From IMG/VR virus record IMGVR_UViG_3300028802_000023, positions 1 to 48,864 of that record: 48,864 bases of DNA. The stretch is one strand, 5' to 3'. This DNA comes from a virus. Under the pieces are notes generated by a model. The model did not search any database. It was not told the DNA's origin and saw only the letters and a program-made list of their open reading frames with translations. Shown one piece after another: positions 2,013 through 12,302 of this stretch (position 1 is its first letter; each line of letters starts with the position of its first letter). Position numbers and translations under genes: made by a program.

Positions 2013-2124
2013 CCCTTTACTTTAAAGTAACTTTCGAGTAACCTTCGAAGTTACTAATGTAGTGCAGAGCACAGCATGTTCTGTGCTTTGCGGTGCATTA
2101 CGCACCTAGCTAGGAGCAACTATA
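2013..2124 (+). promoter_or_regulatory. Intergenic region with repeat half-sites and two hairpins
   Basis: This 112-bp gap after polA holds a perfect 14-bp palindrome (2017-2030), two direct AGTAAC half-sites (2026-2031, 2037-2042) and the inverted partner GTTACT (2050-2055). A hairpin follows with stem AGCACAG/CTGTGCT, extendable to 11 bp with one G-T pair, and then a small GGTGC/GCACC hairpin. It is the densest cluster of the genome-wide GTTAC repeat and lies just before the PEP-CTERM gene. A regulatory or terminator role is inferred. I see no clear sigma-70 promoter. Confidence 0.4.
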
Positions 2125-2763
2125 ATGAGACGCTTACTATTAGCGACTACTGTCTTACTCACATTATCTACTGCGGCCTTTGCCGACGTAGTCATTACAA
2201 CTGATCCAAACATTGCAGTGATTGCTGGTACGGATGGATTGCTGGAGACCAAGTTGTTTCTGGTTGCAGCCGACAACGTCACGGCGTTCAACGCCAATTT
2301 CGGCAGTCAGAACGGCACGCCGCAGTTCAACTTCACCACCACCGGCATCGTCGACGTGGCTAACGGCTTCTCCACCGTCAGCCCTGAAGTCAGGGGTACT
2401 TTTACCAGCCTGACGATTAACGCTCCGACCAACTATACTTTCCAAGACTTCAACTTCTCGATCCTGCAGGCTCCCGATTTTATGGTTACGGCGTCCAATG
2501 GCGGCGTCGTCCATGTCTCCGGTGCGCCAAACGGTAACTTCGACTGGACGGCGTTCACGCTGAACGCTGCCGGGTTAACCTCGATCACCATCACCGCTGA
2601 AGGCGACGGCTTCTTCAAGGAGATGAAGCAGTTCCAGATCAGCGGCTTAGAACAGGTGGCGGCAGTACCAGAAGCTTCAACATGGGCAATGCTCCTGCTG
2701 GGCTTCGCTGGCATTGGCGCGATGGGCATGAAGCAATCGGGTCGCAAGTTCCGGTTCGCATAA
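2125..2763 (+). CDS. PEP-CTERM sorting-signal surface protein (phage-carried)
   Basis: A 212-residue secreted protein. Residues 1-20 are a classic signal peptide (basic start, Leu-rich core, AFA cleavage site before D21). The body is Asn/Thr/Gly-rich and looks beta-structured. The C-terminus has the three PEP-CTERM parts: VPEASTWAM, a hydrophobic segment LLLGFAGIGAMGM, and a basic tail ending RKFRFA. In hosts with exosortase and exopolysaccharide systems such proteins are processed and displayed at the surface. The motif reads PEA rather than PEP, a tolerated variant in my judgement. AGGAG at 2112-2116 gives an 8-nt spacing. Nothing else in the neighbourhood concerns surfaces, so it looks like acquired cargo. 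Possible roles are masking the receptor, superinfection exclusion or altering host aggregation; all three are inference. Confidence 0.85.
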   Translation: MRRLLLATTVLLTLSTAAFADVVITTDPNIAVIAGTDGLLETKLFLVAADNVTAFNANFGSQNGTPQFNFTTTGIVDVANGFSTVSPEVRGTFTSLTINAPTNYTFQDFNFSILQAPDFMVTASNGGVVHVSGAPNGNFDWTAFTLNAAGLTSITITAEGDGFFKEMKQFQISGLEQVAAVPEASTWAMLLLGFAGIGAMGMKQSGRKFRFA

Positions 2764-2782: not shown

Positions 2783-2887
2783 ATGCCGACCACGATGCCA
2801 TTACTCCAGTTAGTAGTATTAATGGCGCTGGTCTGCGTCGTCTCTTTCGGAATCGGTCATTTTGTTGCGTGGTGGACAGACCGCTAA
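2783..2887 (+). CDS. 34-residue single-span membrane protein
   Basis: This small gene starts at ATG 2783 after GGGAG (2771-2775) and stops at 2885-2887, sharing one base with the next ATG (TAATG). Residues 7-31 form one hydrophobic span that ends in the aromatic pair AWW, with a charged TDR tail. Its place between the PEP-CTERM gene and the regulator suggests an early membrane function, but no family is recognised. The clean ribosome-binding site and coupled stop/start support it being real. Confidence 0.6.
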   Translation: MPTTMPLLQLVVLMALVCVVSFGIGHFVAWWTDR

Positions 2888-3216
2888 TGGGCGACAATGA
2901 CGAAATTGCCGCCCTGCGGGCGCGGCTTCGCGCTCTTGAAGGTGCCGTCGAGTACAGCAGCACCAGACTCGGCGATGTGTTTCAGCTTCCGCCGATGCTG
3001 AGTAACCTCATGAGGTTACTTTTGGCAGTGCCAACCGTAACCAATGTGATGGTTCGTAAAATTACAGGCCAGCCCAAGGCCGCGATATCGCGCCTGCGCA
3101 GGCACATGAAAAAGCATAAGATACATATCTATTCGAGGCGCTATGTCGGTTACTGGATCGAGGACAAGGACAAGGCGCGTATTCGCGCCTACGTAGAAGC
3201 AAAGGAAGCGTCATGA
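2887..3216 (+). CDS. Winged-helix DNA-binding protein (OmpR C-terminal-like)
   Basis: A 109-residue protein. The start at 2887 overlaps the stop of the small membrane gene (TAATG) and is preferred over the upstream in-frame ATG at 2869. After a short helix with Leu/Arg heptads (about 7-19), residues 40-105 resemble the winged-helix fold of OmpR/PhoB effector domains: a helix-rich core, the basic recognition region SRLRRHMKKHK, then a beta-wing with SRRYVGYWI. There is no receiver domain. The gene contains a perfect 20-bp palindrome (3001-3020) related to the repeats scattered through this genome, which makes the protein the leading candidate for binding them. That link is inference. It overlaps the next gene by ATGA. 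Confidence 0.75.
   Translation: MGDNDEIAALRARLRALEGAVEYSSTRLGDVFQLPPMLSNLMRLLLAVPTVTNVMVRKITGQPKAAISRLRRHMKKHKIHIYSRRYVGYWIEDKDKARIRAYVEAKEAS
3001..3020. repeat. Perfect 20-bp palindrome of the GTTAC family
   Basis: AGTAACCTCATGAGGTTACT is identical to its own reverse complement. It lies inside the winged-helix gene and encodes SNLMRL there. The arms are the outward-facing version of the GTTAC half-site used in the dispersed repeats. It is a candidate autoregulatory operator. Confidence 0.8.
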
Positions 3217-9347: not shown

Positions 9348-12302
9348 ATGCTGGACGCTCAGGAATATCTGGCCAAGGTCTTACCTTGGCCACAAGACGA
9401 TGACGCACCCGCGTACATCAATATCCACTGGTCCACCGAAACGCTCAACCAGTACGGCAAGCCGTGGTGGTCCGGCCGCGCCACGCGCTCCGTCAAGGAA
9501 GCGATTAACACCATCAAGTGGGCGCTGACGCTTGCCGACGTCAAGGATATCTACGTCTGCATGTCCTCGCAAAGCGAGGCGACGCCGAAAGTTTCCAAGA
9601 AAGGAAATGGTTATTTACTGCCGATCCGCTCGCAGGCGAACGCCGTTGCGTTCAAAAGCCTGTTCATGGATCTCGACTTCAAGGACTACGCAACCCCCAA
9701 CGAGGCGACCAATGCACTGGCGGAATTCGTCAAGACTACCGGACTGCCCAAGCCAAATGTCATCGTCAAATCAGGCGGAGGATTGCACGTCTACTGGACC
9801 GTCGACCGCGCACTCACCCGTGATGAATGGCAACCACTATCGAATGCCCTCGCCAACGCTGCCAAGACTCATCATTTTAAATGCGATACGGGCTGTACTA
9901 TTGATGCTGCTCGTATTCTGCGTATCCCAGATACTTTTAACCGCAAGCTCGCTGTACCTCGTGCTGTTACCCTTGCTGGTGGGCGCACTGGCGGCGACTA
10001 CTCTGTGGCCCGACTGGAGAAATCGCTAGATCCCTATAAGGTTGCCATAGTTACCAAACAGGTAACTGCACCTGCATGGACCAGCGTGCTGCCGCCGAAG
10101 CCGCCGATTGCAGGCGACAGCGATCTGGCGATGGGCATCAACTTCAACACGGGTCCGCCGATCAACATCAACGATGTGGCGCGCGAATGCCCGTTCATCA
10201 ACGAAGCGATTACCTCGGGAGGTAAGAACTTTGCTAACCCACTTTGGAATCTTACAACGCTTCTCTCCACATTTACGGATGGAGGACGTAATGACGCTCA
10301 TGCGATGGCGCACGGACACGCTACGTATACAAAAGAGTCTACAGATGAACTCTTTGACCGCAAAGAAAACGAGCGCAAGAGCAAAAATCTTGGCTGGCCT
10401 GCGTGCAGCACGATCTCTAACAACGGATTCGCCGGGTGCCAAGGCTGTGTTCATCTTGCGGCAAATCGATCTCCTCTCAACTTTGCCGCAACTCAGCTTG
10501 TTACGACGAGCACAAGTACGCCAAATGCGCCCCAAAGCGCTGCAGCGCCTGTTATCGACTTACCCGTCGGGTATTCACGACGACCTGACGGAATTATTTG
10601 CGTCATCCTCGTTAATGAAGATGGCACGCATACCCACGAACCCATTTGCAGCTACCCCATGCACACCCCATCCATCCAAGTCTACCCAATCTACACCCTG
10701 AACTTCTCAAGCATTACCGAAAGCGGCAGAACCAACCAATTGATCGTGCCGACCGGCGATCTCTCGGCAAAGGATTCCATGCGTAGATGCCTGCTCAAAC
10801 AGGGTGTAGCCTTGAAGGAGAACGAGTCAAAGCGCGTGATGGAGTTCTTCATGTCGTGGATCGAGAAACTGCAGAAGACGAAGTCGATGGTCGTGAGCAG
10901 TGCTCCGTTTGGCTGGAGCATCGACTCCAAATCTGAAGTCGAAGGCTTTGTCTACGGCGGCAATCTGTGGATGCCAACCGGCGACCGCGCGGCGGCTAAC
11001 CCCGACCCCGTATTGGCTCGCAGGTACAAGCCAACAGGCGCGATTGATCCGTGGGTGGCGGCAGCGAAACTGATCACCGATCAGAAGCGTCCCGCGCTCG
11101 ATGCCATCGTGGCGTCGGCGTTCGCCGCACCGCTGGTCCGGTTCTGCCATGAACCGGGCGTGCTCATGAGCACGTATTCCACAAAATCAGGTATCGGTAA
11201 AACTTCCGCTATGCGTATAGCGCAGGCGGTATGGGGGCATCCGGTTCGTGCGATGCAGGGGCTGGACGACACCAGCAACTTCGTGTTCGGCAAAATCGGC
11301 CAAATTCAGAATTTACCGATGTACTGGGATGAACTGAAGACAGAGGAAGATCACAAACGGTTCGTCAAGATTGCGTTCAACCTGACCAAACAAAAAGAAA
11401 AGGACCGCATGACCCAGAACGCCACCATGCGTGAATCAGGTGCGTGGCAGACGCTATTGGTCAGCGCTTCCAACGACAGCATAATGAACTTCGTAGTTCA
11501 GCAGACTAAGCAGACGGCAGCCGGTATCTATCGTCTGTTCGAATACGAGGTGCCTGCTGCCACCAACAGCGTCGGGCAAATTGATCAAGCCGATTTCTCC
11601 CGTGTCGTTGGAAGGCTCGACGACAATTACGGCCACATAGGGCTTGAGTATGCTCGTTACCTCGGGAGTAACCATGTAGACATAAGTAAAGATGTCGAGG
11701 CTTTTTACAAGGCAATTGGCAACGAGATAAACACGCTGAACGAGGAACGCTATTGGCGCGTTATGCTTGCTACGTTGCTCAAGGGTGCGGAGTACGCCAA
11801 CAAGCTGGGCTTCACCAACATCGACGGCTTCGCGCTGAAAAAATTCCTGTTCGGCGTCATCGATTCGCTGCGTGCCGAGAAGAACGACCAGCCTGTGGAC
11901 TTGGGCAATGCGTTCAACGTCTCCAACGTGCTGGCGCAATTCCTCAACGCACATCGATCAAGACACACGCTACGCACCAACCGCATCCATATAGGACGCG
12001 GCAAACCCGCCAAGGGCACGATTGCGATCAAGACGGTCGATCCCAGCAGGCTGGAAGCTATTCGCGTTCACATTGGCGAAGACGACAAGCTGATCCGGAT
12101 CAGCAAGACTTACATGCAGGAGTGGTTACTGCAGAATGGCTACTCTTCCAGTGCTATCCTGAAGGCGATGGCGCTGGAATTCGGCTCGGTTTCGATGCAA
12201 GGGCGCATGGGGGCTGGCACTGAATATGCAGGCTCTGGCGAGTACCTGCTGGAGATGGACTTGGCCAAGAGTGCCCACACCAACTTTATCGACGAGGCGT
12301 AA
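9348..12302 (+). CDS. AEP-type primase fused to an SF3/DUF927-like helicase
   Basis: A 984-residue replication protein. The N-terminal third is an archaeo-eukaryotic primase-like domain: DLD at 108-110, SGGGLH with H147, and the CTIDAARILRIPDTFNRK motif. A linker with Cys clusters (WPACSTISNNGFAGCQGC) may bind zinc. The C-terminal half is a DUF927-type ATPase: Walker A SGIGKT (G617, K618, T619), Walker B MYWDE (D661, E662), then an Asn sensor region SASNDS. It should make primers and drive unwinding at the phage fork with the family A polymerase. GGAAGG precedes ATG 9348. It holds three of the dispersed GTTAC palindromes (10049, 10210, 11656). Confidence 0.88.
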   Translation: MLDAQEYLAKVLPWPQDDDAPAYINIHWSTETLNQYGKPWWSGRATRSVKEAINTIKWALTLADVKDIYVCMSSQSEATPKVSKKGNGYLLPIRSQANAVAFKSLFMDLDFKDYATPNEATNALAEFVKTTGLPKPNVIVKSGGGLHVYWTVDRALTRDEWQPLSNALANAAKTHHFKCDTGCTIDAARILRIPDTFNRKLAVPRAVTLAGGRTGGDYSVARLEKSLDPYKVAIVTKQVTAPAWTSVLPPKPPIAGDSDLAMGINFNTGPPININDVARECPFINEAITSGGKNFANPLWNLTTLLSTFTDGGRNDAHAMAHGHATYTKESTDELFDRKENERKSKNLGWPACSTISNNGFAGCQGCVHLAANRSPLNFAATQLVTTSTSTPNAPQSAAAPVIDLPVGYSRRPDGIICVILVNEDGTHTHEPICSYPMHTPSIQVYPIYTLNFSSITESGRTNQLIVPTGDLSAKDSMRRCLLKQGVALKENESKRVMEFFMSWIEKLQKTKSMVVSSAPFGWSIDSKSEVEGFVYGGNLWMPTGDRAAANPDPVLARRYKPTGAIDPWVAAAKLITDQKRPALDAIVASAFAAPLVRFCHEPGVLMSTYSTKSGIGKTSAMRIAQAVWGHPVRAMQGLDDTSNFVFGKIGQIQNLPMYWDELKTEEDHKRFVKIAFNLTKQKEKDRMTQNATMRESGAWQTLLVSASNDSIMNFVVQQTKQTAAGIYRLFEYEVPAATNSVGQIDQADFSRVVGRLDDNYGHIGLEYARYLGSNHVDISKDVEAFYKAIGNEINTLNEERYWRVMLATLLKGAEYANKLGFTNIDGFALKKFLFGVIDSLRAEKNDQPVDLGNAFNVSNVLAQFLNAHRSRHTLRTNRIHIGRGKPAKGTIAIKTVDPSRLEAIRVHIGEDDKLIRISKTYMQEWLLQNGYSSSAILKAMALEFGSVSMQGRMGAGTEYAGSGEYLLEMDLAKSAHTNFIDEA
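10049..10067. repeat. Dispersed palindrome with 7-bp arms
   Basis: AGTTACC-AAACA-GGTAACT, in the primase-helicase gene, encoding VTKQVT. Confidence 0.8.
10210..10225. repeat. Variant palindrome with 7-bp arms
   Basis: TTACCTC-GG-GAGGTAA, in the primase-helicase gene, encoding ITSGGK, the same residue class as EVTSGGN at 46028. Confidence 0.7.
11656..11672. repeat. Dispersed 17-bp palindrome
   Basis: GTTAC-CTCGGGA-GTAAC, in the primase-helicase gene. It encodes RYLGSN, the same frame as the copy at 17534-17550. Confidence 0.8.

Follow-up and report, generated by a model that had tools for sequence, protein, structure and literature searches.

PEP-CTERM genes as a recurrent, mobile cargo of uncultivated phages, often preceded by a structured RNA leader and with products probably exported through the host exosortase

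Phages encode small exported surface proteins such as Cor and Llp, which act in superinfection exclusion or lysogenic conversion; these are lipoproteins or membrane proteins, and their genes are often morons. Exosortase systems, on the other side, have so far been treated as a matter of host biofilm and floc formation. In PEP-CTERM/exosortase (EpsH) sorting, the substrate carries a signal peptide, a PEP-type motif, a transmembrane helix and a basic end, and the exosortase belongs to an EPS locus (Haft et al. 2006, PMC1569441). PepA of Aquincola is a single small, floc-forming PEP-CTERM protein under RpoN control whose dose can change EPS binding: its overexpression decreased soluble EPS and increased bound polymer (PMC9850573).

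We analyzed a gene with the same architecture at positions 2125-2763 (+ strand) of a 48,864-nt stretch, hereafter the window, which is the whole of a 48.9 kb IMG/VR viral contig. Like Cor and Llp, its product is small, phage-coded and predicted to be exported, but differs from them in the predicted route through the host exosortase. It resembles PepA in being a single small PEP-CTERM protein, although PepA is encoded by a host gene and the window gene is phage-borne. Unlike the described EpsH systems, the gene lies on a phage in which no exosortase was found, and its product has a PEAS motif and an extended tail, KFRFA; the inferred hosts likewise have an exosortase in an EPS locus. The NCBIfam floc_PepA model did not match the window protein, and matched three other phage PEP-CTERM proteins (L083, L103 and L125) far below its cut-off. 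Weak similarity to the FxDxF PEP-CTERM family (NF038126) included the motif TFQDFNF. Membership in that family was rejected at 30.9 bits against a cut-off of 50.

The gene starts with ATG and encodes 212 amino acids. The original prediction, made from the sequence alone, claimed a complete PEP-CTERM architecture, and every part of it was found. Residues 1-20 (2125-2184, +) form a Sec signal peptide, read by inspection as MRRLLLATTVLLTLSTAAFA|D, with probable cleavage after AFA and a helix at residues 3-13 in the AlphaFold2 model. The mature domain (residues 21-180; 2185-2664, +; Bradyrhizobium homologues at 37-38%) is beta-rich, almost entirely beta in this model (pLDDT 74). The tripartite C-terminal sorting signal (2665-2760, +) is VPEASTWAMLLLGFAGIGAMGMKQSGRKFRFA, in summary form VPEASTWAMLLLGFAGIGAMG-basic tail, and consists of VPEASTWAM, a hydrophobic transmembrane helix at residues 184-204 of the model and a K/R tail ending in KFRFA. 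The TWAM had been read correctly, and the motif is PEAS, not PEPS, with alanine replacing the second proline of the usual PEP. The HMM search suggested along with the prediction was positive in part: PF07589 scored 21.8 bits, above its gathering score of 20.7, whereas the NCBIfam PEPxxWA model NF035944 (24.2 against 35) and TIGR02595 (11.5 against 16) stayed below their cut-offs. A TIGR02595 search of the whole window record gave no match anywhere and was uninformative. In Foldseek searches, the window protein model gave no strong structural match and no diagnostic fold. FlaA1, cupins and carbohydrate-binding modules were set aside as fold relatives at TM <0.5.

Upstream of the gene lies DNA polymerase A (78-2012, +; phrog_17, E=3e-71), and downstream a winged-helix-like gene (2887-3216, +) with a weak MarR PHROG match. 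Genes for a RecB-like exonuclease, VRR-Nuc, an SNF2-like helicase and a primase-helicase are nearby, in agreement with the predicted placement between phage replication genes, and endolysin, portal-like and terminase genes follow farther along. The window derives from a soil-type phage, and is probably a fragment, because its relatives are longer (62 kb in the relative L001 and 61 kb in Rhizobium phage RHph_TM27A). In L001, the nearest phage relative, the polymerase is 74% and the winged-helix-like gene 62% identical to those of the window, and two PEP-CTERM ORFs occupy the same site between them. In the next nearest relatives, L002 and L003, polA is directly followed by the winged-helix-like gene. 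Comparison with related phages, another check proposed earlier, thus found such genes in L001 but none there in L002 and L003, which points to an accessory locus with polA marking the insertion site common to the window and L001. Like a moron, the gene is missing from the same site in close relatives and has its own leader. Scans for sigma-70 promoters and terminators, which were uninformative, found no clear promoter or terminator for it. A strong fold (z=-3.5) was observed 3ʹ of the gene at 2761-2890, bridging the gap to the next gene. The gene at 9348-12302 of the window matched primase/helicase PHROGs, and its Rhizobium phage homologue (MN988461.1, 42248-45331) is annotated as a putative integrase.

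That the protein family also occurs on bacterial chromosomes could point to a chimeric assembly or to bacterial contamination of the viral contig, and a chimera had been named as a possible refutation. This was excluded by L001, where PEP-CTERM genes occupy the same site between the same flanking phage genes; such genes were also seen on about 40 further viral contigs. Two findings confirmed at the level of sequence that the window ORF is a genuine PEP-CTERM gene and not a chance reading frame: Bradyrhizobium chromosomes encode a homologue that matches it over the full length and in architecture (40% identity, E=2e-34 per genome), and L001 has PEP-CTERM ORFs at the corresponding position.

The window protein alone, used as a query, retrieved no relatives in INPHARED, IMG/VR or genome_contigs, because the pattern step of the search needs near-identical words; motif and profile scans were needed instead. 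A DNA-motif scan of IMG/VR revealed at least 46 more ORFs for PEP-CTERM proteins, spread over about 40 contigs, among the matches listed. Their neighbours in the sampled contigs were phage hallmark genes: terminase and portal (L103), polA (L105, L118, L089), tail proteins (L120, L122, L154), and endolysin with tail (L166). The viral ORFs fell into several mature-domain families with no detectable similarity to one another, and only the signal peptide and the C-terminal signal were common to unrelated families. The largest, which we call the LNGQ family after its motifs TGxNVxF and LGxLNGQ, had 161 relatives in IMG/VR, of which 80 were kept, all from metagenomes. By profile comparison it is distantly related to the window protein, helped by the signals common to both. 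The structure models of the window protein and of LNGQ proteins are rich in beta strands and show a weak, non-diagnostic likeness to sheath, cupin and carbohydrate-binding folds. Among phages, the window protein itself stands almost alone. The claim that this is unusual phage cargo held for deposited phages, since three tested proteins including the window protein were missing from 50,697 deposited records, but not for uncultivated phages, where such genes are common. An LNGQ protein had no match among PLSDB plasmids, an order-wide search with the LNGQ family at E<=1e-22, run without a positive control, was empty, and no phage PEP-CTERM protein was reported in the open-access literature searched. 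Paired genes for sorted proteins, some in tandem, were seen in several phages (L001:7921-9433, L141, L183, L191, L401/L402, L364, and contig 3300045110_000102 with L369 and L412); at L401 and L364, each such gene has its own leader.

Endolysin genes are found close to several of the phage homologues on their contigs, as would be expected if the protein were a virion or lysis part, transiently anchored and used in adsorption, virion decoration or envelope disruption at lysis. However, the location differs between phages (polA, primase, tail, lysin), the window gene has a leader of its own and replication genes around it, and its product matched no PHROG family. We regard this role as very unlikely and favor a cargo gene that acts on the host surface.

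In close pairs of phage genes, dN/dS was 0.08-0.33 and low over the whole protein, indicating purifying selection. Over the DNA compared, the contigs of L001 and L154 resemble each other only in a PEP-CTERM cassette of about 0.84 kb (81.5% DNA identity), suggesting that one cassette moved between otherwise unrelated phages. Purifying selection and cassette transfer together give the picture of a selected, mobile cargo gene. Selection of this kind also bears on the idea of a sorting decoy, in which a phage substrate would flood the exosortase and keep the host's own PEP-CTERM proteins, which may serve as phage barriers or EPS anchors, from being displayed, the exported domain being of little importance. 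A decoy would need only what the unrelated phage families have in common, and would profit from there being a single exosortase per host genome. It would not, however, need the low dN/dS over the whole protein, nor a mature domain kept within a family, as seen in 16 members with 59% mean column identity. We consider the decoy unlikely, and a cargo with a working exported domain the better reading.

The window gene is preceded by a structured 5ʹ leader at 2055-2127 (+), found with the covariance model R2. It consists of a variable covarying stem, a hairpin of the form GGTGC-N5-GCACC and a Shine-Dalgarno sequence, and ends at the ATG. The conserved hairpin, GGTGC-ATTAC-GCACC in the window (2092-2106, +), has a 5 bp helix in which 96% of cells were paired across 28 sequences, with compensatory changes to GATGC/GCATC and GGTAC/GTACC. 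The Shine-Dalgarno AGGAG (2112-2116, +) lies inside the palindrome CTAGCTAG(GAG), and a short hairpin may mask it; at this position, CTCTGATCAGGAG or CTTCCTGCAGGAG occurs in other phages. This location of the Shine-Dalgarno sequence suggests that the leader acts in translational control. RNA folding of 2010-2130 gave z=-4.3. R2, which was built without the window, found the leader at 43.8 bits (E=9e-12) as the sole significant match in the window. In the alignment of 28 sequences, 94% of cells pair, and double-change cells numbered 63 against 19 in shuffles (0/500). An alternative pairing of TGCACCGC with GCGGTGCA to the conserved hairpin was paired in 80% of cells and covaried more weakly, which leaves a two-state switch as only a possibility.

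The same layout was found in unrelated phages, ahead of PEP-CTERM genes that belong to several families. When 777 kb of phage loci were searched, every match of the covariance model above 45 bits lay at the start codon of a PEP-CTERM ORF, two untrained cases included. When all of IMG/VR was scanned with a 16-base core, blind to protein, every readable high-scoring match led to a sorted protein, among them previously unseen PEP-CTERM genes (L446, L457, L474, L475) and one GAGLPG-like protein (L449); three further ORFs were cut by the end of the stretch, and their starts resemble known families. Rfam gave no family at gathering scores and only irrelevant weak matches. The leader is thus previously uncatalogued and a new candidate regulatory RNA. 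Weaker cousins (23-29 bits) formed two groups (L445:6114-6188, L452, L455, L460-L462 and L476; L458, L464, L465, L467 and L472); one group has no ORF, and the other precedes an ORF for a 57-60 aa membrane protein in other phages. The unit of stem and CGGTGCATTCCGCACC may be a wider phage RNA motif.

Copies of the leader were few on Bradyrhizobium chromosomes. One precedes a secreted DUF4440/SnoaL-like protein in four Bradyrhizobium genomes (L435-L438), a weaker one a B. erythrophlei PEP-CTERM gene, and four copies stand before small ORFs within 6.5 kb (L434, L439-L441; G069:C1:3072125-3078603), a region that is possibly prophage-like. No such leader was found at the host homologues of the window protein. 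This difference counts against a neutral passenger, a host gene taken up by accident and left unselected. Patchy presence and the want of a close phage relative of the window protein would suit a passenger; the finding of such genes in many phage types, their purifying selection, the tandem pairs and the cassette transfer would not, and we judge this origin highly improbable. Phage PEP-CTERM genes instead appear as a recurrent, selected and mobile cargo class, much of it with a common leader RNA.

Chromosomal, full-length homologues of the window protein with 38-40% identity were found in three Bradyrhizobium genomes, and in two of the three the gene adjoins the same regulator-like gene. Among the matches listed, bacteria with the tail type of the window were mostly Bradyrhizobium and other Hyphomicrobiales. 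The tetranucleotide profile of the window was also nearest to Bradyrhizobium (0.75, against 0.58-0.72 for the other bacterial groups tried). From the protein homologues and this profile, we infer that the host is an exosortase-bearing Bradyrhizobium-like bacterium. One exosortase was found in 15 of 18 motif-bearing bacterial genomes. Of 149 Bradyrhizobium genomes, 20 had an exosortase and 26 a PEP-CTERM protein matching P0001, and 18 had both (p=4e-15); those with PEP-CTERM only are likely incomplete assemblies, because they are often small. The exosortase region of B. manausense contains polysaccharide-export and glycosyltransferase genes. In 24 phage records with PEP-CTERM or GAGLPG proteins, window included, no exosortase was detected, and any sorting would therefore have to rely on the host, supporting the dependence on host exosortase that had been proposed. 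The tail form xR[LVIF][AV] occurred in 24 of 47 phage and 21 of 163 bacterial PEP-CTERM proteins (p=2e-7), a difference that is indicative only, as the samples were drawn with different patterns. A record labelled Frankia sp. RB7 (L216, L249, L260, L295, L318) contained many Bradyrhizobium-type PEP-CTERM genes and an exosortase, and is probably mislabelled.

Based on the architecture, recurrence, selection, cassette transfer, host homologues, exosortase co-occurrence and leader covariation, we propose, with a probability of roughly 0.62, that the window gene is phage cargo exported via the host exosortase and altering the exopolysaccharide or surface of the host. The missed NCBIfam cut-offs, the non-diagnostic structure, the indirect assignment of the host, the scarcity of phage relatives of the window protein and the fact that L002 and L003 manage without the gene count against this. 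The gene would have been captured as a moron from an exosortase-bearing Bradyrhizobium-like host and have settled between polA and the small regulator-like gene. During infection, the folded leader would control its translation; the protein would be exported by Sec and held by its C-terminal helix, and the host exosortase would cut it and pass the product outward to the exopolysaccharide or outer surface. There it might change the way polysaccharide is retained around the infected cell, the dose effect of PepA being a precedent, and the phage would most likely gain from less adsorption of further phages, or from altered aggregation. The original observation was right and understated, and the purposes suggested with it, a block to superinfection or a change of biofilm or aggregation, are plausible. 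The data suggest that phages routinely rework the coat of Bradyrhizobium-like hosts, a group that includes nitrogen-fixing Bradyrhizobium. If phages use exosortase for export, an infecting phage can directly change the coat and the aggregation of bacteria in soil.

LNGQ members without a recognized PEP tail had another ending: all 24 inspected end in a VPxPxxGAGLPG-like motif followed by a helix and basic residues. Such tails were found at viral loci L356, L361, L369, L371, L372, L377-L379, L384, L388-L392, L394-L396, L398, L400, L403, L404, L406, L407 and L418, at the bacterial loci L431 and L432, and, as GAGLPG-type tails, in 2 of 61 Bradyrhizobium genomes. NCBIfam gave no signal model for the five GAGLPG-tailed proteins scanned. 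For genome G071, in which GAGLPG tails cluster around polysaccharide genes, no PF09721 exosortase was reported, which places it outside the exosortase-positive set; another sorting enzyme for these tails may therefore exist. The occurrence of one mature domain with either of two sorting tails speaks for a tail that has a function and is matched to the host. For work on exosortase specificity, the phage proteins whose C-terminal signals have been exchanged would be natural test substrates. In a wider form, the proposal is that many soil phages of exosortase-bearing Alphaproteobacteria carry mobile cargo that remodels host EPS via exosortase or GAGLPG-reading machinery, many of the genes having in common a leader that times or tunes translation; we give this an even chance. 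As far as our searches reached, neither the cargo class nor the leader was previously described. At L367 (5950-6642), the C-terminus reads ...AVPGPVAGVPEPATWAM..., where the two sorting motifs stand one after the other; this protein may be an intermediate in tail swapping.
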